From Streptomyces sp. HUAS 15-9 (GTDB lineage: Bacteria > Actinomycetota > Actinomycetes > Streptomycetales > Streptomycetaceae): a stretch of 64,000 nucleotides of DNA. The DNA is taken from NCBI RefSeq assembly GCF_025642155.1, contig NZ_CP106798.1:2232001-2296000 (forward strand). Direction: 5' to 3'. The notes under the pieces were generated by a model. The model worked only from the letters and a program-made list of their open reading frames with translations, did not search any database and was not told the DNA's origin. This document shows positions 40,398 to 52,805 of this stretch, piece after piece (the first letter of the stretch is position 1; every line of letters starts with the position of its first letter). The translations under genes were made by a program, and so were the position numbers.

Positions 40398-41303
40398 CTA
40401 CGCCCCGTAGACCCGCCCGGGAACCTCCGCCTCCGCGAGCAGCTTGCTTGCCGTCTCCCCCGCCTCGGCCGGGGTCCACAGCGCGCCCTTGTCGGCGGTG
40501 GGTCCCGGCCGCCAGCCCTCCATGACGGTGATCCGGCCGCCCTCCGCCTCGAAGACCCGGCCGGTGACACCGGCGCTCGCGGCGGAGCCCAGCCAGACCA
40601 CCAGTGGTGACACGTTCGCGGGAGCCATGGCGTCGAAGCCGGAGTCGGGGGCCGTCATGGTCTCGGCGAAGGCGCGCTCGGTCATCCGGGTGCGGGCCGC
40701 GGGGGCGACGGCGTTGACCTGGACGCCGTACCGGGCGAGTTCGGCCGCCGCGACCAGGGTCAGCCCGACGATCCCGGCCTTCGCGGCGCTGTAGTTCCCC
40801 TGCCCGACGGAGCCGAGGAGTCCGGCGCCGCTGCTGGTGTTGACGATCCGGGCCACCGGTGTCCGGCCGGCCTTGGCCTCGGCCCGCCAGTGCGCGGCGG
40901 CGTGCTTGAGGGGCAGGAAGTGGCCTTTGAGGTGGACACGGAGCACGGCGTCCCAGTCGTCCTCGTCGAGGTTGACGAGCATGCGGTCGCGCAGGAAGCC
41001 GGCGTTGTTGACGAGCGTGTCGAGCCGGCCGTACGTCTCCAGGGCCGCCGCCACCAGGGATTCGGCCCCGGCGCTCGTGGCGATGTCGCCGCCGTGGGCG
41101 ACGGCCTCGCCGCCCGCCGCACGGATCTCCTCGACGACCCGGTGGGCCGGGCTGCCGGGCCCGGGTGCCCCGTCGAGCCCGACGCCCAGGTCGTTGACGA
41201 CGACCCGGGCGCCCTCCGTGGCGAACGCGAGCGCGTGGGCCCGGCCGAGCCCCCGCCCGGCGCCGGTGACGACGACGACCCGTCCCGCGCAGATTCCGCT
41301 CAT
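40398..41303 (-). CDS. Short-chain dehydrogenase of the steroid C/D-ring cluster (Rv3548c-like)
   Basis: A 301-residue SDR with the NAD(P) motif TGAGRGLG (13-20), NNAG, a Ser in NTSSGAG and the catalytic YSAAK. The long ARVVVNDLGVGLDG segment and C-terminal extension match the larger SDR type seen in beta-oxidation clusters. In Mycobacterium tuberculosis an SDR of this type (Rv3548c) occupies the same place beside a second SDR and opposite echA20. That similarity is recalled, not computed. Its Shine-Dalgarno GGAGGAG lies inside the end of the preceding SDR gene, one base after whose stop it begins, so the two are an operon. The substrate is unknown. Confidence 0.88.
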   Translation of the reverse strand: MSGICAGRVVVVTGAGRGLGRAHALAFATEGARVVVNDLGVGLDGAPGPGSPAHRVVEEIRAAGGEAVAHGGDIATSAGAESLVAAALETYGRLDTLVNNAGFLRDRMLVNLDEDDWDAVLRVHLKGHFLPLKHAAAHWRAEAKAGRTPVARIVNTSSGAGLLGSVGQGNYSAAKAGIVGLTLVAAAELARYGVQVNAVAPAARTRMTERAFAETMTAPDSGFDAMAPANVSPLVVWLGSAASAGVTGRVFEAEGGRITVMEGWRPGPTADKGALWTPAEAGETASKLLAEAEVPGRVYGA

Positions 41304-41304
41304 C

Positions 41305-42087
41305 TCACTCCTCCTTGTCGGCGGGCTTGTCGGCGGTCGCGGCGTCCAGGAAGGCGGGCCGCTCCCCTCCTCCGTGCACGAGCAGGCTCGCCCCGCTGAT
41401 GTACGCGGCCGCGTCGGAGGCGAGGAAGACGGCGGCCGCGCCGATGTCGGACGGAGCGGCCAGCCGTCCGAGGGGAACGGTGCCGGAGACCGCGGCGACG
41501 CCGTCCTCGCCGCCGTAGTGGAGGTGGGACAGTTCGGTGCGGACCATACCGACGACGAGGGTGTTGACGCGGACCTCCGGCGCCCACTCCACCGCCATGG
41601 AACGGGCCAGGTTCTCCAGCCCCGCCTTGGCAGCGCCGTAGGCCGCCGAGCCGGGCGAGGGGCGGCTGCCGCTGACGCTGCCGACCATCACGACCGAGCC
41701 CCGGGCCCGTCTCAGGTGCTCGTACGCCGCGAGGGAGGCCGTCAGCGGGGTGACGAGGTTCAGCTCGATCACCCGTACGTGTCGCTCGGCGTCCGCGTCG
41801 GCCAGCCGCCGGTACGGGGTACCGCCGGCGTTGTTGACGAGGACGTCGAGCCGGGGCAGCGCGTCGAAGAAAGCGTGTACGGCGGGCGCGTCGCGTAGGT
41901 CGAGGGGGGTGAACTCGACGCCGTCGAGGGTCACTTCGGGTGGTCTGCGGGCGCAGACGAGGACCCGGGCACCGGTCTGGGCGAAGGCCCTCGCGATCCC
42001 CGCGCCGACGCCCCGGGTGCCGCCCGTGACGACGACGGTTCTGTCGCGCGGCGAGTTGTCCACAGGCCTCCCGCTCGTGTTGTCCAC
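41305..42087 (-). CDS. Short-chain dehydrogenase of the steroid C/D-ring cluster (Rv3549c-like)
   Basis: A 260-residue SDR with TGGTRGVG cofactor motif, NNAGG, the serine strand VVMVGSVSGS and the catalytic YGAAK, and LNLVTPLTAS. Position and orientation match Rv3549c of the mycobacterial KstR2 regulon, divergent from echA20. The translation start is duplicated. GTG at 42087 and GTG at 42063 are each preceded by CGAGCGGGAGG, because a 24-bp block has been tandemly copied in frame; the longer form is given here. A KstR2-like operator lies about 50 bp upstream. Its oxidoreductase step in ring degradation is not established. Confidence 0.88.
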   Translation of the reverse strand: MDNTSGRPVDNSPRDRTVVVTGGTRGVGAGIARAFAQTGARVLVCARRPPEVTLDGVEFTPLDLRDAPAVHAFFDALPRLDVLVNNAGGTPYRRLADADAERHVRVIELNLVTPLTASLAAYEHLRRARGSVVMVGSVSGSRPSPGSAAYGAAKAGLENLARSMAVEWAPEVRVNTLVVGMVRTELSHLHYGGEDGVAAVSGTVPLGRLAAPSDIGAAAVFLASDAAAYISGASLLVHGGGERPAFLDAATADKPADKEE

Positions 42088-42134
42088 AGGGCCTCCCGCT
42101 CGTCCTCGCCGACTGCTAGCTTCGAAGCCTCACA

Positions 42135-42153
42135 CCTAACAAATGTTTGGTGG
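42135..42153. promoter_or_regulatory. KstR2-like operator between the SDR pair and echA20-ipdABC
   Basis: CCTAACAAATGTTTGGTGG contains AACAAATGTTTGGT, matching 12 of 14 positions of the published KstR2 motif AnCAAGnnCTTGnT as I remember it. It is almost identical to the second site at 48931-48951 read on the other strand. Confidence 0.75.
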
Positions 42154-42188
42154 AAAGGCAGCTGAGTGCGAAGGTAGCTGATGCGTCC

Positions 42189-42932
42189 ATGGGTGTCTCC
42201 ACCTCGTCCCCGGAAAAGGGGATTTCGCTCGTCACGGTCGACTTCCCACCGGTGAACGCGCTGCCGGTGGCCGGATGGTCCGCCCTGGCCGAGGCCGTGC
42301 GCGCGGCGGGCCGTGACCCGGAGGTCCGGTGCGTCGTGCTGGCCGCCGAGGGGCGGGGCTTCAACGGGGGCGTGGACATCAAGGAGATACAGGCGGACGG
42401 GCAGGCGGCGCTGATCGGCGCCAACCAGGGCTGCGCGGAGGCTTTCGCGGCGGTCTACGAGTGCGAGACGCCCGTGGTCGCGGCGGTGCAGGGGTTCTGT
42501 CTGGGCGGCGGGATAGGCCTGGTGGGGAACGCGGACGCGATCGTGGCGAGCGACGACGCCACGTTCGGGCTGCCCGAGCTGGACCGGGGTGCGCTCGGTG
42601 CCGCCACGCATCTGGCCCGGCTGGTCCCACAGCATCTGATGCGTGCGCTGTACTACACCTCGCGCACGGCGAGCGCGGCCGAGCTGCATGCGCACGGCTC
42701 GGTGTGGCGGGTGGTGCCGCGCGAGGGCTTACGGGCGGCCGCGCTGGAGCTGGCGCGGGAGATCGCCGCCAAGGACGGGCGGCTGCTGCGCATGGCCAAG
42801 GCGGCCATCAACGGGATCGACCCCGTCGACGTGCGCCGCAGCTACCGCTTCGAACAGGGCTTCACCTTCGAGGCCAACCTCAGCGGGCTGGCCGACCGGG
42901 TCCGGGACACGTTCGGGAAGGAGGGCGCCTAG
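42189..42932 (+). CDS. echA20: Steroid D-ring cleaving crotonase-fold hydrolase EchA20
   Basis: In mycobacteria EchA20 hydrolytically opens ring D of the methylindane-dione CoA intermediate from steroid breakdown. The 247-residue protein has the crotonase pattern AAEGRGFNGGVDIKE (52-66), GFCLGGGIGLVGNADAIVA and FGLPELDRGALGAATHL, which matches my memory of the mycobacterial enzyme closely, including total length. The ATG at 42189 is chosen because MGVSTSSPEKGISLVTVDFPPVNAL-type starts align; a GTG at 42150 lies within the operator. The weak AAGG site is 15 bases away. It is the first gene of a tightly packed four-gene operon. Confidence 0.9.
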   Translation: MGVSTSSPEKGISLVTVDFPPVNALPVAGWSALAEAVRAAGRDPEVRCVVLAAEGRGFNGGVDIKEIQADGQAALIGANQGCAEAFAAVYECETPVVAAVQGFCLGGGIGLVGNADAIVASDDATFGLPELDRGALGAATHLARLVPQHLMRALYYTSRTASAAELHAHGSVWRVVPREGLRAAALELAREIAAKDGRLLRMAKAAINGIDPVDVRRSYRFEQGFTFEANLSGLADRVRDTFGKEGA

Positions 42933-43784
42933 GTGGGCGACAAGACGATGACCGCCGACGAGGTGATCTCCCGCCTGGAGAGCGGCATGACCCTCGGCAT
43001 CGGCGGCTGGGGGTCACGGCGCAAGCCGATGGCCCTGGTCAGAGCTCTGCTCCGAGCCGGGATCGGCGATCTCACCGTCGTGTCGTACGGTGGCCCGGAC
43101 GTCGGCGCGCTGGCGGCGGCCGGTCGCGTGCGCAAGCTGGTGACGGCCTTCGTCACCCTCGACTCGATCCCGCTCGAACCGCACTACCGCGCGGCGCGCG
43201 AGCGCGGGGCATTCGAGCTGATGGAGGTCGACGAGGGGATGTTCATGTGGGGGCTGCGGGCGGCGGCGAACCGGCTGCCCTTCCTTCCGGTGCGGGCGGG
43301 GATCGGCTCCGATGTGATGCGGGTCAACCCCGGCCTGCGGACGGTCACTTCGCCGTACGACGACGGGGAGACGTTCGTGGCGATGCCCGCCCTGCGGCTG
43401 GATGCGGCCCTGGTGCATGTCAACCGCGCCGACCGGCTGGGCAACGGGCAGTACCTGGGCCCGGATCCGTACTTCGACGACCTGTTCTGCGAGGCGGCGA
43501 CGGCGGCCTACGTCTCGTGCGAACGGATCGTGGACACGGCCGAGTTGACGAAGGAGGCGGCCCCGCAGTCATTGCTGATCAGGCGGCACACGGTGACGGG
43601 CGTGGTGGAGGCGCCGAACGGTGCGCACTTCACTTCGTGCGCACCCGACTACGACAGGGACGAGGGCTTCCAGAAGGAGTACGCGTCCACTCCGTGGCCG
43701 GAGTTCGCCGAGCGGTTCCTCGGCGGGGACGAGCAGGCCTACCAAGCGGCGGTGCGGAACTGGCGGAGGGAGCAGGAGCGATGA
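42933..43784 (+). CDS. ipdA: Cholesterol ring-cleaving hydrolase subunit IpdA
   Basis: IpdAB is a CoA-transferase-fold enzyme that hydrolyses steroid ring C in the COCHEA-CoA intermediate. The 283-residue subunit has LESGMTLGIGGWGSRRKPMA, VVSYGGPDVG, LPFLPVRAGIGSD, the ALVHVNRADRLGN segment and DPYFDDLFCEAA. I recognise these as conserved with mycobacterial IpdA, distinguishing it from ordinary 3-oxoacid CoA-transferases. The GTG start follows the echA20 stop directly, with GGAAGGAGG inside the echA20 end. It overlaps ipdB by four bases (ATGA), consistent with a stoichiometric heteromer. Confidence 0.92.
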   Translation: MGDKTMTADEVISRLESGMTLGIGGWGSRRKPMALVRALLRAGIGDLTVVSYGGPDVGALAAAGRVRKLVTAFVTLDSIPLEPHYRAARERGAFELMEVDEGMFMWGLRAAANRLPFLPVRAGIGSDVMRVNPGLRTVTSPYDDGETFVAMPALRLDAALVHVNRADRLGNGQYLGPDPYFDDLFCEAATAAYVSCERIVDTAELTKEAAPQSLLIRRHTVTGVVEAPNGAHFTSCAPDYDRDEGFQKEYASTPWPEFAERFLGGDEQAYQAAVRNWRREQER

Positions 43785-44521
43785 GTGCGACCCGTGCCGA
43801 GTACTGCGTGATCGCCTGCGCCGAGGCCTGGCGCGGCTCGGGTGAGATCCTGGCGAGTCCGATGGGCGTGATCCCCTCGCTGGGGGCGCGGCTCGCCCGG
43901 CTGACCTTCGCGCCGGACCTGCTGCTGACCGACGGCGAGGCGACGCTCGTCCGCCCGGACGGGACACCCGAGGGCTGGCTGCCGTACCGGCAGCATCTGG
44001 CCCTGGTGGCCGGCGGGCGGCGGCACGTGATGATGGGCGCGAGCCAGATCGACCGGTTCGGCAACCAGAACATCTCGTGCATCGGCGACTGGGCGCGGCC
44101 CGCGCGGCAGCTGCTCGGCGTGCGCGGCGCTCCGCTCAACACGCTGAACAACCCGACGAGTTACTGGATCCCGAGACACTCCCGGCGGGTCTTCGTGGAG
44201 AAGGTCGACATGGTGTGCGGGGTGGGGTACGACCGTGCCGCCGAGCACCCCGGCACGGCCCGCCATCACCGCATCGCGTGCGTCGTCTCCGACCTCGGCG
44301 TCTTCGACTTCGCCACGCCCGACCACGGCATGCGGCTGGCCTCGCTGCATCCGGGGGTGGACGTCGAACAGGTGCGGGAGGCGACGGACTTCGCGCTCGC
44401 CGTCCCGGACGAGGTGCCGTACACCCGGGAGCCCACCGAGGGGGAGCTACGGCTCATCCGGGACGTGCTCGACCCTGGCGGCGCCCGCGCGCGCGAGGTG
44501 CCGGAGAGGGTGAGGGGCTGA
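43781..44521 (+). CDS. ipdB: Cholesterol ring-cleaving hydrolase subunit IpdB
   Basis: The partner of IpdA. The 246-residue protein begins MSATRAEYCVIACAEAWRGS and contains ASPMGVIPSLGARLARL, MMGASQIDRFGNQNISCIG and RRVFVEKVDMVCGVGYD. These form the beta-subunit CoA-transferase fold, with the glutamate of the GEIL segment replacing the usual transferase catalytic context. Order and spacing (ATGA overlap with ipdA; TGATG overlap with ipdC) are those of the mycobacterial operon. It acts in the cytoplasm. Confidence 0.92.
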   Translation: MSATRAEYCVIACAEAWRGSGEILASPMGVIPSLGARLARLTFAPDLLLTDGEATLVRPDGTPEGWLPYRQHLALVAGGRRHVMMGASQIDRFGNQNISCIGDWARPARQLLGVRGAPLNTLNNPTSYWIPRHSRRVFVEKVDMVCGVGYDRAAEHPGTARHHRIACVVSDLGVFDFATPDHGMRLASLHPGVDVEQVREATDFALAVPDEVPYTREPTEGELRLIRDVLDPGGARAREVPERVRG

Positions 44522-45585
44522 TGGAGACCGCGTTCACCCGGCTGGTCGGGGTCCGGCATCCGGTCGTGCAGACGGGGATGGGCTGGGTGGCGGGCCCCCG
44601 GCTGGTCTCGGCGGCGGCGAACGCGGGCGCGCTGGGCATCCTGGCATCGGCGACGATGACGCTGGATCAGCTGCGCGGGGCGATACGCGAGGTCAGGTCG
44701 CGGACGGACGCGCCGTTCGGGGTGAACCTCCGGGCGGACGCGGGCGACGCCGGCGACCGGGTGCGCCTGATCATCGACGAGGGGGTGCGGGTGGCGTCCT
44801 TCGCGCTCGCGCCCTCCCGTGAGCTGATCGCCGAGCTCAAGGAGGCAGGGGTCGTCGTGATCCCGTCCGTGGGGGCGCGGCGGCACGCGGAGAAGATCGC
44901 AGCGTGGGGCGCGGACGCGGTGATCGTGCAGGGCGGTGAGGGGGGCGGGCACACCGGCGAGGTGGCGACGACCGTGCTGCTGCCGCAGGTGGTGGACGCA
45001 GTGCGGATACCCGTGGTGGCGGCCGGCGGCTTCTTCGACGGCCGGGGTCTGGTCGCGGCGCTCGCATACGGGGCGGCGGGGGTCGCGATGGGGACGCGGT
45101 TCCTGCTCACCTCGGACTCGACGGTGCCGGACGCGGTGAAGGCCAGGTATCTGGCGGCGACGGTCCGGGACGTCACCGTCACCACGGCGGTCGACGGCCT
45201 GCCGCACCGCATGCTGCGCACGGATCTGGTGGACTCCCTGGAGCGCTCCGGCCGCACACGGGCGCTGTTCCAGGCGGTCCGCCGGGCGGCCGGGTTCCGG
45301 AGGCTTTCGGGTCTCACCTGGCGGCGGATGGTCCGCGACGGGCTCGCTCTGAAGCACGGCAAGGAGTTGTCCTGGAGTCAGGTGCTGCTGGCCGCGAACA
45401 CGCCGATGCTGCTGAAGTCCGCGATGGTGGACGGCCGTACGGACCTCGGGGTGATGGCGTCCGGGCAGGTCGCCGGGGTGATCGAGGACCTGCCGTCGTG
45501 CGCCGAGCTGGTGGAGAGGGTGATGTCCGAGGCCGGGGAAATCATCGGCGAGCTGCCGGGGGCGGGTGCTTCAATGCGCGGATGA
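44521..45585 (+). CDS. ipdC: Nitronate-monooxygenase-like flavoprotein IpdC
   Basis: IpdC-type proteins are FMN/FAD TIM-barrel enzymes proposed to act on the ring C/D CoA intermediate before EchA20. The 354-residue protein has the NMO-family motifs QTGMGWVAGPRLVSAAANAGALG, VVVIPSVGARRHAEK, VQGGEGGGHTGE and VVAAGGFFDGRGL with AMGTRFLLTSDS. Its C-terminal region (ANTPMLLKSAMVDGRTD) is shared with mycobacterial IpdC by memory, and length agrees. Its start overlaps the ipdB stop by one base and its stop overlaps the start of a SIMPL gene, so it lies inside one translational unit. Confidence 0.9.
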   Translation: METAFTRLVGVRHPVVQTGMGWVAGPRLVSAAANAGALGILASATMTLDQLRGAIREVRSRTDAPFGVNLRADAGDAGDRVRLIIDEGVRVASFALAPSRELIAELKEAGVVVIPSVGARRHAEKIAAWGADAVIVQGGEGGGHTGEVATTVLLPQVVDAVRIPVVAAGGFFDGRGLVAALAYGAAGVAMGTRFLLTSDSTVPDAVKARYLAATVRDVTVTTAVDGLPHRMLRTDLVDSLERSGRTRALFQAVRRAAGFRRLSGLTWRRMVRDGLALKHGKELSWSQVLLAANTPMLLKSAMVDGRTDLGVMASGQVAGVIEDLPSCAELVERVMSEAGEIIGELPGAGASMRG

Positions 45586-46223
45586 CGGAGACGATCGACA
45601 GACCGTGGGGCATCAGTGTGTTCGGCGCGGGCAGTGTGCGGGCCGAACCCCAGCTGGCCCGGGTGAAGCTGACGGTGGATGTGCTGGAACCCGCACCGGA
45701 CGATTCGTTCCAGAAGGCGGGTGCGGCGGTGGCGCGGCTGCGTGAGGTGCTGCGCGCGCATGGCATAGCGGATGCGGCGGTGTCGGGATCGCGGCTCAAG
45801 CTCAGCTCGGAGTACGACGGGTACGGCGGCGACCGGAAGTTTCTCGGATATCGCTGCCAGGCCTCGTACTCCATCGAGACCGAGGCGCTCGACGTGTTGC
45901 AGCAGCTGATCGTGGACGCGGTCGACGCGGGTGCGCACCGGGTCGACCACGTGGAGTTCGACGTGCGCGACAAGCCGGCGCTGCGGGACGAGGCGCGGCG
46001 CAAGGCGGTTGCGGCCGCGCGCCGCAAGGCCGAGGTGTACACGGAAGCGGCGGGCGTGCCGCTCGGCACGGTGCTGCACATCAAGGACGTGGACGCGGAT
46101 TCGTTGGGGTACGGCCGGTACCAAGGTCATGGCGGTGGTGGCGGCAGCTCGGCCGGCGATCTGGCGCCGGGCATGGTGGAGGTGTCGGCGGGCGTCCTGC
46201 TGGGCTTCTCCCTCGGCCGCTGA
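45582..46223 (+). CDS. SIMPL-domain (DUF541) protein coupled to ipdC
   Basis: A 213-residue cytoplasmic-looking SIMPL protein. It begins DRPWGISVFGAGSVRAEPQLARVKLTV, has a YRCQASYSIETEAL strand, the helix ARRKAVAAARRKAEVYTEAAG and a glycine-rich segment near the C-terminus (GHGGGGGSSAG). Its ATG overlaps the ipdC stop (ATGA), which makes it the fifth cistron of the echA20-ipdABC operon. I do not recall SIMPL genes in the mycobacterial cluster. Its role is unknown; coupling suggests it is wanted together with the ring-cleavage enzymes. A terminator follows directly. Confidence 0.85.
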   Translation: MTETIDRPWGISVFGAGSVRAEPQLARVKLTVDVLEPAPDDSFQKAGAAVARLREVLRAHGIADAAVSGSRLKLSSEYDGYGGDRKFLGYRCQASYSIETEALDVLQQLIVDAVDAGAHRVDHVEFDVRDKPALRDEARRKAVAAARRKAEVYTEAAGVPLGTVLHIKDVDADSLGYGRYQGHGGGGGSSAGDLAPGMVEVSAGVLLGFSLGR

Positions 46224-46244
46224 CGCACGGCGTCCGGAGCCTTC

Positions 46245-46283
46245 CGGATCTGACGGGCCGGTGCCGTCGGCCCGTCAGATCCG
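46245..46283. terminator. Bidirectional terminator overlapping the fadA6 stop codon
   Basis: CGGATCTGACGGGCCG (46245-46260) and CGGCCCGTCAGATCCG (46268-46283) form a perfect 16-bp stem with a seven-base loop. The right arm includes the last codons of the thiolase gene. It separates two convergent operons. Confidence 0.9.
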
Positions 46284-47432
46284 TTCGATGATCGTCACGT
46301 TGGCCTGGCCGCCGCCCTCGCACATCGTCTGGAGCCCGAACCGGCCGCCGGTGCGTTCCAGTTCGTGCAGGAGGGTCGTCATCAGCCGGACGCCGGTGGC
46401 GCCCAGGGGGTGGCCGAGGGCGATCGCGCCGCCGCTGACGTTGACCTTCTCCGGGTCGGCACCGGTCTCCTTCAGCCAGGCCAGGACGACGGGTGCGAAC
46501 GCCTCGTTGATCTCGACGAGGTCGATGTCGTCGATGGTGAGTCCGCTCTTCTTCAGGGCGTGCGCGGTGGCCGGGATGGGGGCGGAGAGCATCCGGATGG
46601 GGTCCTCGCCGCGCACGGAGAGGTGGTGCACACGGGCCCGCGGGCGCAGCCCGTGCTCGCGCACCGCCCGCTCCGAGGCCAGCAGCATGGCCGCCGCACC
46701 GTCGGAGACCTGCGAGGAGCAGGCGGCGGTGATGGTGCCGCCGTCGATCACGGGCTTCAGCGCGGCCATCTTCTCCAGTGAGGTGTCCCGGCGCGGGCCC
46801 TCGTCGGCGGTGACGTCCCCGAGGGGAACGAGTTCGCGCTCGAAACGGCCCTCGTCGATCGCCCGCACCGCCCGCCGGTGCGAGCGCAGGGCGAACTCCT
46901 CCTGGTCCTGCCTGCTGATCCCCCACTTGGCGGCGATCATCTCGGCGCCGGTGAACTGGTTGACGGGCTGCGTGCCGTAGCGGGCCCGCCAGCCCTCGCT
47001 GCCCAGGAAGGGGCCCTCGGTCAGGCCCAGCGGCTCGGCGGCCTGCCGGGAGGCGAAGGCGATGGGGATCTGCGACATGTTCTGGACACCGCCGGCGACC
47101 ACCAGGTCCTGGGTGCCGGACAGCACGGCCTGCGCGGCGAAGTGCACGGCCTGCTGCGAGGAGCCGCACTGCCGGTCCACGGTCACACCGGGCACCTCCT
47201 CGGGCAGCCCGGCCGCCAGCCAGCAGGTCCGGGCGATGTCCCCGGCCTGCGGTCCGACCGTGTCCAGACAGCCGAACACGACGTCCTCCACGGCGCCCGG
47301 GTCCACGCCGGCCCGCGCGATCAGTTCCTTGAGCACATGGGCACCCAGGTCGGCCGGGTGGACTCCGCTCAGTCCGCCGCCGCGCCGCCCGACGGGCGTG
47401 CGGACCGCTTCGACTATGTAGGCCTCGGGCAT
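46275..47432 (-). CDS. fadA6: Acetyl-CoA acyltransferase (thiolase) FadA6-like
   Basis: A 385-residue degradative thiolase. It has the acyl-accepting Cys89 in DRQCGSSQQAVH, the general base region NEAFAPV, GGAIALGHPLGATG and the second active-site cysteine in CEGGGQ. It is assigned as FadA6-like from context: in mycobacteria fadA6 adjoins kstR2 and the ipdF gene and performs thiolysis of the ring-derived acyl-CoA. Sequence alone cannot separate FadA6 from other thiolases, but neighbours on both sides support it. It starts 17 bp after the TetR gene on the same strand. Confidence 0.88.
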   Translation of the reverse strand: MPEAYIVEAVRTPVGRRGGGLSGVHPADLGAHVLKELIARAGVDPGAVEDVVFGCLDTVGPQAGDIARTCWLAAGLPEEVPGVTVDRQCGSSQQAVHFAAQAVLSGTQDLVVAGGVQNMSQIPIAFASRQAAEPLGLTEGPFLGSEGWRARYGTQPVNQFTGAEMIAAKWGISRQDQEEFALRSHRRAVRAIDEGRFERELVPLGDVTADEGPRRDTSLEKMAALKPVIDGGTITAACSSQVSDGAAAMLLASERAVREHGLRPRARVHHLSVRGEDPIRMLSAPIPATAHALKKSGLTIDDIDLVEINEAFAPVVLAWLKETGADPEKVNVSGGAIALGHPLGATGVRLMTTLLHELERTGGRFGLQTMCEGGGQANVTIIERI

Positions 47433-47449
47433 GGCAACTCCCCAGTGGG

Positions 47450-48115
47450 TTACGTGCGGACGGCGATCCCGTCCAGCACCATCGACAGGTACTGCCGGGC
47501 GATCTCCTCCGGGCTGTGCTGTCCGCCGGGCCGGTACCAGGACGCGGCGACCCAGACCGTGTCGCGCACGAAGCGGTAGGTGAGCCGGACGTCGAGGTCG
47601 GCGCGGAAGACACGCTCGGCGACCCCGAGCTCCAGCGTGGACAGCCAGGCCGTCTCGAACTTGCGCTGGGACTCGGCGAGGAAGGTGAACCTGTCCTGCG
47701 CGACCAGCTGCTTGCTCTCCTTCTGATAGATCGCGACGGCGGCGCGGTGCCGGTCGATCTCCCGGAAGGACTCGGTGACCAGGGCCTCCAGCGTCTCGCG
47801 GGGGCCGAGAGCGGCTGCGAGGACGGTGTCGTAGCCGTCCCAGAGCTCGTCGAGGAAGGTGCGCAGGATCTCTTCGAGCATCGACTCCTTGGAGTCGAAG
47901 TGGTAGTAGAGGCTGCCCGCGAGCATGCCCGCGTGGTCCGCGATCCTGCGCACGGTGGTGGCGTTGTAGCCCTGCTCGGCGAAGACCTCGGCGGCGGTCT
48001 CGAGGAGTTCGCGGCGGCGCGCGTGAGCGGCGGCGGCAGCGGCCGCCGGCTTCTTCGGGGCGGTCACCTGGGCCTTCTTCGCGGCGGTCACCTGGGGCTT
48101 CTTCTTGGTCGGCAC
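47450..48115 (-). CDS. kstR2: TetR family regulator, KstR2-like
   Basis: A 221-residue TetR repressor. The helix-turn-helix lies at about 33-80 (RRELLETAAEVFAEQGYNATTVRRIADHAGMLAGSLYYHF region), followed by an all-helical ligand domain. The N-terminus has a lysine/alanine-rich extension with an internal duplication (PQVTAAKKA, AQVTAPKKP). Position between the thiolase and the ipdF-like SDR matches kstR2 in mycobacteria. Its predicted ligand is the HIP-CoA intermediate, and its predicted targets are the two matching operators at 42135 and 48931, one heading its own operon. The GTG at 48115 has AGGACC upstream, which is weak. Confidence 0.87.
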   Translation of the reverse strand: MPTKKKPQVTAAKKAQVTAPKKPAAAAAAAHARRRELLETAAEVFAEQGYNATTVRRIADHAGMLAGSLYYHFDSKESMLEEILRTFLDELWDGYDTVLAAALGPRETLEALVTESFREIDRHRAAVAIYQKESKQLVAQDRFTFLAESQRKFETAWLSTLELGVAERVFRADLDVRLTYRFVRDTVWVAASWYRPGGQHSPEEIARQYLSMVLDGIAVRT

Positions 48116-48130
48116 GGGTCCATTGTGGTC

Positions 48131-48916
48131 CTAGGGGTGCTGGCTGCTGACGCTGACGACTTCACCAGTCAGGTAAGAGGAGTAGCCGGAGGCCAGGAAG
48201 ACGATCACGTTGGCGACCTCCCACGGTTCCGCGTACCGCCCGAAGGCCTCGCGCGCGGTCAGTTCCTGAAGCAGTTCGGGTGTGGTCACCTTCGCCAGGT
48301 GCGGGTGCATGGCGAGGCTCGGCGCCACCGCGTTGACCCGCACGCCGTACTCGGCCGCCTCGACGGCGGCGCATCGGGTCAGTGCCATCACGCCCGCCTT
48401 CGCGGCCGCGTAGTGCGCCTGCCCGGCCTGGGCGCGCCAGCCGACGACGGAGGCGTTGTTGACGATCACGCCGCCCCCGGTCTCCTTCATCGAGCGCAGG
48501 GCCGCCCGGGTGCAGCGGAAGGTGCCGTTCAGTGTCACGTCCAGGACGCGGGACCACTGCTCGTCGGTCATGTCGACCAGGGCCGAAGTGCCGCCCAGTC
48601 CGGCGTTGTTGACGACGACGTCCAGCCGCCCGAGGTCCCGTACGGCGGTGTCGAACAGGGCCCGCACCTGGGACTCGTCGGTGACGTCACAGGGGACCGC
48701 GGTCACGGCTCCCGGGTGCTCACGGCAAAGTTCCGCCTCGTACTCCTTCAGCCGTCGCGCGTGCGCGTCGCTGATCAGCACGCGCGCGCCCTCCTCCAGG
48801 AAGCGGCGGGCGGTCGCCCCGCCGATCCCCGCTCCGGCCGCCGCGGTGATGACGGCGGTGCGGCCCTTCAGCAGTCCGTGCCCGGGCACGTACGCCGGAC
48901 TCTCGACGCCTGTCAT
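48131..48916 (-). CDS. ipdF: Short-chain dehydrogenase, IpdF-like
   Basis: A 261-residue SDR with an unusual cofactor motif TAAAGAGIG (24-32), NNAGLGG, the serine strand VNNASVVGW and catalytic YAAAK, and a conserved N-terminal GHGLLKGRTAVIT. In mycobacteria the SDR beside kstR2 (IpdF, Rv3559c) oxidises the 5-hydroxy group of the hydrindane CoA intermediate. The same position, operon polarity and general sequence support that call, but it is inferred from memory. It is the first gene of an operon with kstR2 and fadA6, and its ATG is 15 bp from the KstR2-like operator. Confidence 0.85.
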   Translation of the reverse strand: MTGVESPAYVPGHGLLKGRTAVITAAAGAGIGGATARRFLEEGARVLISDAHARRLKEYEAELCREHPGAVTAVPCDVTDESQVRALFDTAVRDLGRLDVVVNNAGLGGTSALVDMTDEQWSRVLDVTLNGTFRCTRAALRSMKETGGGVIVNNASVVGWRAQAGQAHYAAAKAGVMALTRCAAVEAAEYGVRVNAVAPSLAMHPHLAKVTTPELLQELTAREAFGRYAEPWEVANVIVFLASGYSSYLTGEVVSVSSQHP

Positions 48917-48930
48917 AGGGCCACGCTAAC

Positions 48931-48951
48931 CTACCAAACACTTGTTAGGGA
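48931..48951. promoter_or_regulatory. KstR2-like operator between ipdF and the acyl-CoA dehydrogenase genes
   Basis: CCTACCAAACACTTGTTAGGG contains ACCAAACACTTGTT, which fits 13 of 14 positions of the recalled motif AnCAAGnnCTTGnT. Its reverse complement, CCTAACAAGTGTTTGGTAG, differs from the site at 42135 at only two positions. Confidence 0.8.
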
Positions 48952-48974
48952 AGGTTGAGGGAAGGAGGACCGCC

Positions 48975-50114
48975 GTGGACCTCACCCACGCTCCGGCCGA
49001 CGAGGAGTTCCGCGCCGAGGCCCGCGCCTGGCTCGACGGGCACGTGCCCGGCACTCCTCTGCCCTCCCTGGAGACCGAGGAGGGCTTCGCGGCGCACCGC
49101 GTCTGGGAGGCCGAACTGGCCGCGGACCGCTGGTCGGTGGTGTCCTGGCCCGAGGAGCACGGCGGCCGGGGCGCGGGGCTGATCCGGTGGCTGGTCTTCG
49201 AGGAGGAGTACTGGGCGGCGGGCGCGCCGGGCCGGGTGAGCCAGAACGGCATCAGCCTGCTCGCACCCACCCTCTTCGACCACGGCACGGCGGAGCAACG
49301 CGCGCGCGTGCTGCCCCGGATGGCATCCGGCGAGGTGGTCTGGGCGCAGGCCTGGTCCGAGCCGGAGGCGGGCTCCGACCTGGCCTCCCTCACCTCCCGG
49401 GCCGTGCGCACGGACGGCGGCTGGCTGCTGAGCGGACAGAAGACCTGGTCGTCACGGGCCGCCTTCGCCGACCGCGCCTTCGGCCTGTTCCGCAGCGACC
49501 CGGACACCCCGAAGCCCCACCAGGGCCTCACCTACCTCATGTTCGACCTGCGGGCCCCGGGCGTCACGGTCCGCCCGATCGGCCGCCTCGATGGGAAGCC
49601 CGCGTTCGCCGAGCTGTTCCTGGACGAGGTGTTCGTGCCGGACGAGGACGTGATCGGCGAGCCCGGCCAGGGCTGGCGGATCGCGATGTCGACGACCGGC
49701 AACGAACGCGGCCTGACCCTGCGCTCCCCCGGCCGCTTCCTGGCCGCCGCGGACCGGCTCCTCGACCTGTGGCGGGCCCAGGGCAGTCCGGAGCAGGCGC
49801 GTGCCCGGGTGGCCGACGCCCTGATCGGCGCCCGCGCCTACCAGCTGTTCACCTACGAGGCCGCCTCCCGCTTCCTGGACGGCGAGCCGCTCGGAGCCGA
49901 GTCCAGTCTGAACAAGGTGTTCTGGTCCGAGTACGACCTCGCGCTGCACGAGACGGCACTCGATCTGCTGGGCGAGGAGGGCGAGTTGGCGGACACCGCC
50001 TGGGCGGAGGGCTATGTCTTCTCCCTCGCCGGACCCATCTACGCGGGCACGAACGAGATCCAGCGCGACATCATCGCCGAGCGTCTGCTCGGCCTGCCGA
50101 AGGGACGTCGCTGA
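48975..50114 (+). CDS. Acyl-CoA dehydrogenase, FadE30/FadE31-like
   Basis: A 379-residue flavin dehydrogenase with all three domains: the N-terminal helical domain ending WPEEHGGRGAG, the beta domain with WAQAWSEPEAGSDLAS and GQKTWSSRAAF, and the C-terminal helices with NERGLTLRSPG and YAGTNEIQRDIIAERLLGLP. This length and the AGTNEIQR signature fit the larger alpha-type subunits of the mycobacterial KstR2 regulon (FadE30 or FadE31). The GTG at 48975 has AAGGAGG 7 bases upstream, better than longer starts that overlap the operator. Its stop overlaps the next gene by one base, suggesting a two-subunit complex. Confidence 0.9.
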   Translation: MDLTHAPADEEFRAEARAWLDGHVPGTPLPSLETEEGFAAHRVWEAELAADRWSVVSWPEEHGGRGAGLIRWLVFEEEYWAAGAPGRVSQNGISLLAPTLFDHGTAEQRARVLPRMASGEVVWAQAWSEPEAGSDLASLTSRAVRTDGGWLLSGQKTWSSRAAFADRAFGLFRSDPDTPKPHQGLTYLMFDLRAPGVTVRPIGRLDGKPAFAELFLDEVFVPDEDVIGEPGQGWRIAMSTTGNERGLTLRSPGRFLAAADRLLDLWRAQGSPEQARARVADALIGARAYQLFTYEAASRFLDGEPLGAESSLNKVFWSEYDLALHETALDLLGEEGELADTAWAEGYVFSLAGPIYAGTNEIQRDIIAERLLGLPKGRR

Positions 50115-51067
50115 TGCGCTTCCTGCCCGACACCGAACAGCGCGCCTTCGCCCGCTCCCTGCACGCGATGCTGGCCGCCGCGGACACGCCGTCGGTCGTC
50201 CGGGACTGGAGCCGCGGCGACCGTACGAGCGGCCGCGCGCTGTGGTCCCGTATCGCGGATGCGGGGGTGTTCGGGCTCGTGATTCCGGAGGCGTACGAGG
50301 GGATGGGGCCCCGGCCGGTGGAACTCGCGCTCGCCTTCGTGGAGCTGGGGCGGCACATCGTGCCCGGCCCGCTGGTCGAGACCGTCGCGGCGGCCGCGCT
50401 GCTGGCCGAGCCCGGCCCGGCCAAACGGTTCCTCCCGCCACTCGCGGCGGGCGAGACGATGGCGACGGTCGCGGCCGGCGGGTACGCGCTGGACGGGGAC
50501 GCGGCGACCCTCCGTCTCGGCCTCACCCCCGACGGTCTGCGCCTGTCCCCGGGAGCCGGCCCGGTGCGCCCCTCCCTGGACCCGGCGCGCCGCCTCACCC
50601 CGCTCTTGCCGGGCGGCGAACTTCTCATCCCCGACCCGCCCGTGGACCACGCCCTCACCTGGGCCCGGCTCGCCACCGCCGCCCAGGCCCTCGGCGTCGG
50701 TCTGGCGCTGCTCGACAGGACCGTCGCGTACGTCCGCCGGCGCACCCAGTTCGGTGTCCCCGTCGGCTCGTTCCAGGCCGTGAAGCACCGGCTGGCCGAC
50801 GCGAGGACCGCCCTCGAGTTCGCGCGCCCCCTGCTCTTCGGCGCCGCGCTGACGATGGACCCGGCGGACGTGGCGGCCGCCAAGCTGAAGGCGTGCGAGG
50901 CCGCCTACGCCACCGCCCGCACCGCGTTGCAGCTGCACGGCGCGATCGGGTACACGGCCGAGTACGAGCTGTCCCTGTGGCTGACCAGGGCCCGCGCGCT
51001 GCGCTCGGCCTGGGGCGGCCCGGACGAGTGCCGCGAGCGGGTCCTCAGTGGTGGTCGCCGCTGGTGA
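50114..51067 (+). CDS. Acyl-CoA dehydrogenase, short FadE32/FadE33-like subunit
   Basis: A 317-residue acyl-CoA dehydrogenase family protein. The C-terminal domain is intact (YVRRRTQFGVPVGSFQAVKH and LQLHGAIGYTAEYELSLWL), but the middle beta domain is shortened and lacks the usual AxTEPxAGSD segment. This matches the short beta-type subunits FadE32/FadE33 (about 320 residues), which form heterotetramers with FadE31. TGATG overlap with the preceding gene implies co-translation. Its end overlaps the convergent cytochrome b gene by 23 bp. Which intermediate it oxidises cannot be read from sequence. Confidence 0.87.
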   Translation: MRFLPDTEQRAFARSLHAMLAAADTPSVVRDWSRGDRTSGRALWSRIADAGVFGLVIPEAYEGMGPRPVELALAFVELGRHIVPGPLVETVAAAALLAEPGPAKRFLPPLAAGETMATVAAGGYALDGDAATLRLGLTPDGLRLSPGAGPVRPSLDPARRLTPLLPGGELLIPDPPVDHALTWARLATAAQALGVGLALLDRTVAYVRRRTQFGVPVGSFQAVKHRLADARTALEFARPLLFGAALTMDPADVAAAKLKACEAAYATARTALQLHGAIGYTAEYELSLWLTRARALRSAWGGPDECRERVLSGGRRW

Positions 51068-52691
51068 GCTCCCGGTACTCCTCGCGGGTCGGCTTCGGGA
51101 TGTGGGTCTCGGACCCGAACAGTGCCCGGGCGAGCCGTGCGCGCACGCGCTGGGACACGGTCACCGGCCGCCGCACACCATTGGCGTCCTCGCGGGGCCC
51201 GATCTCGTACGGCGGGTTCTGCTCGTGCTGGGTCAGGACGAACAGCCGGTCCTGCGACAGGGGTTCATGGACCTCGACGTACTCGCCGTGCGGCAGCAGT
51301 TTGATGATGCCCGTCTCCCTGCCGTGCAGCACCTTGTCCCGGTCCCGGCGCTGCAGCCCGAGACAGATCCGCTTGGTCACCGTGAAGGCGAGGACCGGCA
51401 CGACGAAGACGGAGATCCGCACGAACCAGGTGATCGAGTTGATCGACAGATGCAGATGCGTGGCCACGATGTCGTTGCCGCCACCGATCAGCAGCACCAC
51501 GTACAGGCTCAGCCAGGCCACGCCGAGGCCGGTGCGCACGGGCACGTTGCGCGGCCGGTCCAGGATGTGGTGCTCGCGCCGGTCGCCGGTGACCCACGCC
51601 TCGAGGAAGGGATAGAGCCCGAGCGCCAGCAGGATCAGCGGGAACAGCGAGAACGGGATGAAGACGCCCAGTTCCAGTGTGTGGCCCCAGGCGTCGATCT
51701 CCCATCCCGGCATCACCCGGATCAGGCCCTCGGAGAAGCCGAGGTACCAGTCGGGCTGCGCGCCCGTGGTGACGAGGTCCGGCCGGTACGGCCCGAAGGC
51801 CCACACCGGGTTGATGCTGGCGATCCCGCCCATCAGCGCGAGCACACCGAAGGTGAGGAAGAAGAAGCCGCCCGCCTTGGCCATGTAGACCGGCAGGAAG
51901 GGCATGCCGACGACGCTCTTCTGGTCCCGTCCGGGCCCGGGGTACTGGGTGTGCTTGTGGAAGAAGACCAGGATCAGATGGGCCACGACCAGGCCCAGCA
52001 TGATCCCGGGCAGCAGCAGGACGTGGACCGGGAAGAGCCGCGAGATGATGTCGTGGCCGGGGAACTCCCCACCGAACAGGAACATGGAGAGGTACGTCCC
52101 CACGACCGGGACGGACAGGATCGCGCCGTCGGCGAAGCGGATGCCGGTCCCGGAGAGCAGGTCGTCGGGGAGCGAGTAGCCGGTCAGGCCGGTGATGATG
52201 CCGAGCATCAGCAGGGTCCAGCCGAACACCCAGTTGAGCTCGCGCGGCTTGCGGAAGGCGCCGGTGAAGAACACCCGCATCATGTGTACGAGCATGCCGG
52301 TGACGAAGACCAGCGCCGCCCAGTGGTGGATCTGCCGGATCAGCAGACCGCCGCGCACATCGAAGCTGATGTGCAGCGTCGACTCGTACGCCTTGGTCAT
52401 GATGATGCCGTTGAGCGGGCCGTAGGAGCCGTGGTAGACGACCTCGGCGCCGCTCGGCTCGAAGAAGAGCGTGAGGTAGACGCCGGTGAGGATCAGGATG
52501 AGGAAGCTGTAGAGGCAGACCTCGCCGAGCATGAAGGACCAGTGGTCCGGGAACACCTTGCGCATGTTGGCCTTGGCCAGGGCGTAGAGCCCGAGCCGTC
52601 CGTCGGCCCAGTCGGCGAGCCGCTCGCCCTTGGCGGGCTCGCCCCTGCGTGCGGAAACCCCGTCGCCGTTCCCCGATCGTGCGCCGTCCAT
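51045..52691 (-). CDS. qcrB: Cytochrome bc1 complex cytochrome b subunit (QcrB-like), orphan copy
   Basis: A 548-residue polytopic cytochrome b. Four histidines for two b haems are in place (about His122, His136, His223, His238). The quinol-site motif is PDWYLGFSEG, the actinobacterial equivalent of PEWY. The fused subunit IV part (helices around FGVLALMGGIASINPVWAFGPYRPD) and the actinobacterial C-terminal extension are present. ATG 52691 has GGGGAGG 9 bases upstream; longer frames add unrelated sequence. No qcrA (Rieske) or qcrC gene is adjacent, so this is a stand-alone paralogue separate from the usual qcrCAB operon. It either substitutes for QcrB or forms a different quinol-oxidising complex. 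Confidence 0.93.
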   Translation of the reverse strand: MDGARSGNGDGVSARRGEPAKGERLADWADGRLGLYALAKANMRKVFPDHWSFMLGEVCLYSFLILILTGVYLTLFFEPSGAEVVYHGSYGPLNGIIMTKAYESTLHISFDVRGGLLIRQIHHWAALVFVTGMLVHMMRVFFTGAFRKPRELNWVFGWTLLMLGIITGLTGYSLPDDLLSGTGIRFADGAILSVPVVGTYLSMFLFGGEFPGHDIISRLFPVHVLLLPGIMLGLVVAHLILVFFHKHTQYPGPGRDQKSVVGMPFLPVYMAKAGGFFFLTFGVLALMGGIASINPVWAFGPYRPDLVTTGAQPDWYLGFSEGLIRVMPGWEIDAWGHTLELGVFIPFSLFPLILLALGLYPFLEAWVTGDRREHHILDRPRNVPVRTGLGVAWLSLYVVLLIGGGNDIVATHLHLSINSITWFVRISVFVVPVLAFTVTKRICLGLQRRDRDKVLHGRETGIIKLLPHGEYVEVHEPLSQDRLFVLTQHEQNPPYEIGPREDANGVRRPVTVSQRVRARLARALFGSETHIPKPTREEYRELTSGDHH

Positions 52692-52805
52692 ACGTCGTCG
52701 CCTCCCCGCCGGATCTCCCTCAGGGTGGCACGACGGCGCGGCTGAGCCAACGGGGCCGACACGATCTATGCCCGGCCGAGGCGATCCACGGCCCGCCGGC
52801 ACGGT

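Follow-up and report, generated by a model that had tools for sequence, protein, structure and literature searches.

Streptomyces sp. HUAS 15-9 carries a cluster of 11 genes whose products are orthologues of the enzymes that degrade steroid rings C and D. It is located at positions 40398-51067 of a 64,000-nucleotide stretch of DNA (hereafter the window), which covers 2232001-2296000 of contig C1 (NZ_CP106798.1; 9,258,818 bases) in a genome of 9.6 Mb. Judged from sequence, the C/D-ring pathway of this host is conserved, under selection, of the KstR2 type, split over two loci and devoid of the ring-A enzymes searched for. It is a known kind of pathway that departs from its defining regulon in that three member genes lie outside the cluster. 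We consider it probable that both loci together form a functional, KstR2-repressed lower pathway for 3aα-H-4α(3'-propanoate)-7aβ-methylhexahydro-1,5-indanedione (HIP) and its close derivatives, with the entry genes at the second locus and the substrates scavenged as remnants.

Gene identities and order

The assignment is carried by IpdA (42933-43784, plus strand) and IpdB (43781-44521, plus strand), the predicted alpha and beta subunits of the hydrolase of 2-(2-carboxyethyl)-3-methyl-6-oxocyclohex-1-ene-1-carboxyl-CoA (COCHEA-CoA). Their best matches among solved structures are the IpdAB-type chains of 6co6 and 6con (6co6_A at 5e-97 for IpdA, 6co6_B at 1e-84 for IpdB), while matches to glutaconate CoA-transferases are far weaker (3e-22 and 1e-14, respectively). 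Within the motif EVDEGM, IpdA keeps the glutamate that is replaced in 6coj, and within TDGEA, IpdB has glycine at the position of the transferase glutamate. Glutamate in alpha together with glycine for glutamate in beta is the signature of the hydrolase type, and Gly57 of the beta subunit is given in PMC5380842 as the criterion that separates IpdAB from CoA transferases. The first-pass annotation of this DNA had proposed a steroid C/D-ring (HIP) cluster in mycobacterial order and had named ordinary CoA-transferases as best hits of IpdA and IpdB as the outcome that would speak against it. Since IpdAB structures from the steroid pathway lead by far and both signature residues are kept, this outcome was not seen.

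Orthologues of EchA20, IpdC, IpdF, FadA6, Rv3548c and Rv3549c are present as well, and their order is conserved. Compared with named loci of Rhodococcus, Mycolicibacterium and Nocardia, ten genes reach 51-72% identity and the second acyl-CoA dehydrogenase 45-49%; the gene order equals that of the reference loci, the Rhodococcus genomes having the cluster split into two blocks. Two short-chain dehydrogenase/reductase (SDR) genes open the cluster on the minus strand: SDR1, the Rv3548c orthologue (40398-41303; 301 aa; 64-70% to references; NCBIfam NF005861 at 493 bits, cut-off 373), and SDR2, the Rv3549c orthologue (41305-42087; 260 aa; 55-59%; NF005893 at 366, cut-off 255). They face the plus-strand genes for EchA20 (42189-42932; 247 aa; 63-70%; NF005925 at 404, cut-off 260), the predicted ring-D hydrolase of the hexahydroindene-carboxyl-CoA intermediate HIEC-CoA, for IpdA and IpdB, and for IpdC (44521-45585; 354 aa), the predicted reductase of 5-OH-HIC-CoA, i.e., of the 5-hydroxy form of the carboxyl-CoA-methylhexahydroindanone HIC-CoA. 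Back on the minus strand follow the thiolase FadA6 (46275-47432; 385 aa; 66-72%; NF005865 at 704, cut-off 591), the TetR repressor KstR2 (47450-48115; 221 aa) and the SDR protein IpdF (48131-48916; 261 aa; 62-68%; NF005880 at 452, cut-off 336), the predicted 5-oxo-HIC-CoA oxidase. The five NCBIfam models whose cut-offs are passed by SDR1, SDR2, EchA20, FadA6 and IpdF bear generic names, and consequently the identification rests on orthology. IpdC, an NMO/FabK-like protein, passes no NCBIfam cut-off and matches at E<=1e-30 only solved structures of the FabK/NMO type; it is 64-68% identical to the gene at the same position in Rhodococcus, Mycolicibacterium and Nocardia. KstR2 matches PDB 2ibd at 7.5e-68 and the KstR2 structure 4w1u at 7e-57, with 58-59% identity to rhodococcal KstR2. 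For SDR1, PMC8399759 lists the rhodococcal orthologue as a hydroxyacyl-CoA dehydrogenase in HIP side-chain removal.

Two adjacent acyl-CoA dehydrogenase genes close the cluster on the plus strand. According to identities and trees, they are FadE31 and FadE32: the longer protein (48975-50114; 379 aa) is 62-64% identical to FadE31 vs 38-40% to FadE30, the shorter one (50114-51067; 317 aa), a predicted dehydrogenase of 4-methyl-5-oxo-octanedioyl-CoA (MOODA-CoA), 45-49% to FadE32 vs 33-34% to FadE33, and both fall into the respective clades at 100/100, in a tree that carries a long-branch warning and whose clades depend on midpoint rooting. An assignment as FadE30/FadE33, guessed from size and adjacency, was rejected on these identities and trees. 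For the mycobacterial reference, the table in PMC5380842 places ipdF and fadE30 leftward and fadD3, fadE31, fadE32 and fadE33 rightward; a KstR2 box lies between fadE30 and fadD3. Because the window pair is FadE31/FadE32, the missing genes are fadE30 and fadD3, from either side of the second KstR2 box, and fadE33, from the end of the operon; in the comparison with the reference loci, none of the three was found inside the window cluster. FadD3 is the HIP-CoA synthetase according to PMC5380842, the products of fadE30 and fadE33 are listed as HIP side-chain dehydrogenase in PMC8399759, and PMC9782250 likewise places FadE30 in the dehydrogenation of the HIP side chain.

Thus, the steroid identity and the mycobacterial order proposed at first are borne out by structure matches and orthology, and the coordinates, overlaps and lengths given for the 11 genes (EchA20, IpdC and the short FadE included) are confirmed. 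The gene list itself stands, but it overlooked a twelfth gene inside the cluster, of the SIMPL/DUF541 family, as well as the absence of fadD3, fadE30 and fadE33.

KstR2 boxes and the second locus

Each divergent promoter of the cluster contains a palindrome (CTAACAAAYGTTTGGT and CTAACAAGTGTTTGGT). Box 1, CTAACAAATGTTTGGT, lies at 42136-42151 on the plus strand in the SDR2/echA20 promoter and box 2, CTAACAAGTGTTTGGT, at 48933-48948 on the minus strand between ipdF and fadE31. By sequence, KstR2 is thus accompanied by predicted operators of the AnCAAGnnCTTGnT type in divergent promoters, each 1-2 bases off the 2010 consensus. Together with its flank, AACCTACCAAACACTTGTTAGG, box 2 resembles the M. 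tuberculosis Rv3560c/Rv3561 operator AACCTACCAAGCACTTGCTTTGTT as printed in PMC3068626 (Kendall 2010). The same source describes three KstR2 operators for mycobacteria, one of them before kstR2; the window cluster has two. When the genome was searched with a 16-base consensus, derived from these streptomycete loci themselves, the two window boxes were the sole sites at up to 2 mismatches, while sites with 3 mismatches occurred at 8 places, which is the level of the controls (5 and 8). Both boxes recur in 21 further streptomycete genomes: box 1 is present in all of them (19 exact, 2 with one mismatch) and box 2 is exact in 20, the remaining locus ending before it, so that 20 of the 21 genomes (22 loci, G012 being represented twice) have both boxes at no more than one mismatch.

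Co-orthologues of fadD3, fadE30 and fadE33 were found at 3.847-3.892 Mb of the same genome, about 1.6 Mb from the window cluster. The ligase scores 788 bits, above the FadD3-family cut-off of 657, the FadE33-like protein (3857822-3859012) belongs to the FadE33 clade (97/94) and the FadE30-like protein (3891258-3892412) to the FadE30 clade (96/98). The idea that FadD3 and FadE30 are lacking altogether and that the pathway is entered at HIC-CoA was dropped after the genome search had found both. This second locus (3.847-3.899 Mb) also holds genes for an Ltp2-like protein, a ChsH2-like protein with a ChsH2-type OB domain, an SDR protein, a major facilitator superfamily (MFS) carrier, a cyclase-family hydrolase, an HsaB-like flavin reductase (194 bits, under the cut-off of 230), an additional dehydrogenase pair and a second acyl-CoA ligase. 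A conserved 211-aa gene at 3855440-3856075, TetR-like by eye, is a candidate for the regulator of the locus. The genes of the reference loci were named by their order, and for hsa, chs and ltp2 the names are those that we take to apply there. KstR2 boxes at the second locus were considered as well and rejected, since none with up to 2 mismatches was found in 22 loci (440 kb) from 8 genomes. Among the seven other genomes from which the locus was fetched, G049, G005, G034 and G057 hold most of its genes. From G012, G015 and G041, 40 kb each were taken; the piece covers the FadE30 half in G012 and the fadD3 end only in G015 and G041.

The entry genes co-occur with IpdA. Across 61 genomes of the genus, IpdA and a FadE30 of at least 50% identity were both present in 43 and both missing in 16, leaving 2 discordant (43/1/1/16); the corresponding counts for FadD3 are 42, 16 and 3 (42/2/1/16). 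One discordant genome, G001, is 79% complete. The FadE30 type of the second locus was detected in 38 of the 61 genomes. In 28 of these 38 it shares a contig with FadD3 at a distance of 19-46 kb, in 9 the two are on different contigs or no FadD3 was detected, and G012 has its sole FadD3 more than 1 Mb away. Another FadE30 type (63-66% identity) occurs in 9 of the 61 genomes. Since 6 of these 9 are without the second-locus type, the two types largely replace each other. In G002, G004, G015 and G041 the other type adjoins the ipd genes or lies about 8 kb from ipdA.

Ring-A genes, distribution and origin

No match to HsaC at E<=1e-15 was found in the genome of the host, nor any to HsaA at E<=1e-3 in a search without its own positive control; by BLASTP, loci fetched from four other Streptomyces contain matches to the same HsaA protein at 50-51%. 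The observation that ring-A/B genes are missing beside the cluster is thereby supported and, for HsaC and HsaA, widened to the whole genome. Among 150 genomes of the genus (G000-G149, as inferred from their handles), 33 matched HsaC. Nine of these matches, all in IpdA-positive genomes, have 50-52% identity, and the remaining 24 are weaker (29-45%), although some could still be HsaC; an HsaC of at least 50% identity is absent from 94 of the 103 IpdA-positive genomes. Four genomes, G012, G023, G086 and G098, encode HsaA, HsaB, HsaC, HsaD and KstD at 45-52% identity plus a FadE30 of 65-66%. In G086 and G098, 10-20 kb separate HsaC from ipdA, in G023 tens of kb separate it from the ipd block, and in G012 the distance is in megabases. 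By gene content, these four look closer to full steroid degraders.

IpdA itself is widespread: 242 of 295 genus genomes have a match at E<=1e-10, of which, counted by hand from the match listing, 33 are weak (best E >1e-30) and 209 strong, 5 of the latter being intermediate (7e-79 to 4e-87). At the level of the order, 97 of the 147 genomes sampled, and 2 of the 5 genera, matched at E<=1e-60. Among the best 120 IpdA homologues listed, every one with an organism name is from Streptomyces, S. avermitilis and S. collinus being among the carriers. In a genus of another family of the same order (G299-G313), IpdA was observed at 65-68% identity in the 10 genomes listed. The core order is mostly shared by the 21 further streptomycete genomes (22 loci). 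Exceptions are G012, where the fadA6-fadE32 half is inverted, L144 without a called kstR2, L149 without SDR2 and L132 without SDR2 beside echA20; several of the 22 loci are incomplete at an end or contain extra genes. The cluster genes are under purifying selection, as dN/dS, the ratio of nonsynonymous to synonymous substitution rates, was 0.11-0.44 in 76 comparisons (eleven genes in seven loci, one missing).

The first-pass annotation had suspected an insertion, or else a locus that few species have kept. With a strong IpdA in 209 of 295 genomes, and with empty sites that suggest loss, this view is not supported. Five sites of IpdA-negative genomes were examined, and three are clean: the gene for a protein with an HExxH motif is followed, directly or via the SIMPL gene, by genes for a von Willebrand factor A (vWA) protein and/or a rhomboid protein. 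At L196 and L197 the flanks enclose other genes, and neither site was taken as clean. In the cluster-less G117, SIMPL alone stands between the HExxH and vWA genes. With ipd genes flanking SIMPL left and right in the cluster, a loss accounts for this more readily than one insertion would. The empty sites thus suggest loss, and a recent insertion was rejected on the same comparison.

The SIMPL/DUF541 gene (45582-46223, plus strand; PF04402) lies between ipdC and fadA6 and overlaps ipdC by 4 bases. It was called within the cluster in one of the 21 further genomes (G067) and is probably a native neighbour outside the pathway. A gene for a QcrB-type cytochrome b (51045-52802), with no adjoining qcrC or qcrA, converges on fadE32 with an overlap of 23 bases, and such a gene occupies the equivalent position in 8 of 20 loci. 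Of the flanking products, PepN, a response regulator, QcrB, vWA-TerF and rhomboid were each verified by a family match, the rhomboid neighbour having been predicted correctly; for the HExxH gene, no family match was found.

Proposed pathway, rival explanations and known systems

By orthology with characterised enzymes, whose chemistry we transfer from PMC5380842, we infer reactions, substrate, effector, regulation and cross-feeding for this host as follows. At the second locus, FadD3 would form HIP-CoA, whose side chain would be dehydrogenated by FadE30 and FadE33, and SDR1 and a thiolase may complete side-chain removal. IpdF and IpdC would then convert 5-OH-HIC-CoA to HIEC-CoA, EchA20 would hydrolyse ring D and IpdAB ring C, and thiolysis by FadA6 would yield MOODA-CoA. 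FadE31 and FadE32 are predicted to begin the final round of beta-oxidation to propionyl- and succinyl-CoA. KstR2 would occupy the two operators until released by HIP-CoA. Because the host appears to be without ring-A meta-cleavage, it most likely scavenges HIP-type compounds shed by degraders of steroids and bile acids; that it uses fragments made by other organisms is plausible. PMC5380842 relates that Hashimoto and Hayakawa (1977) observed MOODA accumulation by a streptomycete growing on HIP, the reference naming Streptomyces rubescens. MOODA corresponds to the product immediately before the predicted FadE31/FadE32 step, and the report, as related there, fits a HIP pathway.

It is possible, though in our view doubtful, that the two loci jointly degrade another polycycle (a terpenoid, a sterol-like compound or a self-made hydrindane) which converges on HIP-CoA or HIC-CoA outside the 9,10-seco route, HIP then not being the natural substrate. 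A large and recurrent second locus with its Ltp2-like, ChsH2-like and HsaB-like proteins, extra dehydrogenase pair, second ligase, cyclase-family hydrolase and MFS carrier would suit such a role, as would the missing KstR2 boxes there and the failure to find HsaC and HsaA in the host. However, the orthology of the window proteins with steroid C/D-ring enzymes is clear, no A/B-ring substitute was identified, and growth of a streptomycete on HIP is reported according to PMC5380842. One might speculate further that most Streptomyces have an unrecognised two-locus pathway, in which the second locus opens and trims a polycyclic terpenoid or steroid-like substrate without HsaA/HsaC and passes HIP-CoA or HIC-CoA to the KstR2 cluster; we regard this as rather unlikely. 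A decaying remnant of a formerly complete steroid pathway is improbable. It would agree with the occurrence of HsaA, HsaC, HsaD, KstD and a second FadE30 type in some Streptomyces, with the loss of fadD3, fadE30 and fadE33 from the window locus and with the empty sites, but all eleven open reading frames are open, purifying selection and the conservation of both boxes disfavour decay, and co-orthologues of the missing genes are retained elsewhere and co-occur with the cluster. Hardly probable, too, is the degradation of whole steroids by non-homologous or undetected A/B-ring enzymes. The HsaB-like reductase and a KstD-like protein at 4994691-4996421 (54% identity over 555 residues) point in this direction; yet in the 60 kb examined around the KstD-like gene no further gene strongly matches any of the steroid reference loci, and neither HsaC nor HsaA was found at the thresholds given above, KshA and HsaD not having been searched for.

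Several observations weigh against a KstR2-repressed HIP pathway. The top NCBIfam match of the short window FadE is IpdE2, of the FadE33 type (150 bits, cut-off 450), and the FadE33-like protein of the second locus reaches 213 bits with this model, again far below the cut-off; the dependence of the FadE clades on rooting belongs here as well. Unlike in the mycobacterial regulon, the FadD3, FadE30 and FadE33 copies of the second locus are without a recognisable KstR2 box, and because of its many further genes this locus may act on a larger substrate or a different one. None of the genes was assigned as a side-chain enoyl-CoA hydratase, and an isolated KstD-like protein is present. Moreover, the Fisher values for co-occurrence with IpdA (about 1e-12 for FadE30 and 1e-11 for FadD3) are uncorrected for kinship and overstate the coupling because the genomes are related. 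Nevertheless, we favour the HIP pathway.

According to PMC4810484, a steroid pathway is present in 2 of 57 Streptomyces genomes and lacking in 55, whereas the C/D-ring half is carried by about 70% of the Streptomyces species sampled here (209/295). The KstR2 regulon is described in PMC3068626 as highly conserved among actinomycetes; in what we saw of the openly licensed PMC literature, the cluster is not described for Streptomyces as a genus. If the pathway is functional, a very common soil genus would help to mineralise steroids and bile acids by completing the work of others, and the MOODA observation of 1977 would gain candidate genes. In addition, the cluster offers a non-mycobacterial setting for the study of IpdAB and KstR2.

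With the KstR2 regulon of M. tuberculosis, M. smegmatis and R. jostii RHA1, the window cluster has the IpdAB signature residues and eleven orthologues in common, the latter arranged and oriented alike, and two of the three operators have counterparts in it. It differs in lacking fadD3, fadE30 and fadE33 and a box directly before kstR2, and in the box itself (AACAA[A/G]YGTTTGGT vs AnCAAGnnCTTGnT); the Streptomyces second locus has no KstR2 boxes, and neither HsaA nor HsaC was detected in the host. Within the genus, G012, G023, G086 and G098 have the core genes and boxes in common with the host, but additionally possess HsaA-HsaD, KstD and the FadE30 of 65-66%. Another parallel is the HIP cluster of Steroidobacter denitrificans, whose fadD3 is likewise located elsewhere in the genome (PMC5380842), although this organism is a proteobacterium that degrades testosterone both aerobically and anaerobically.

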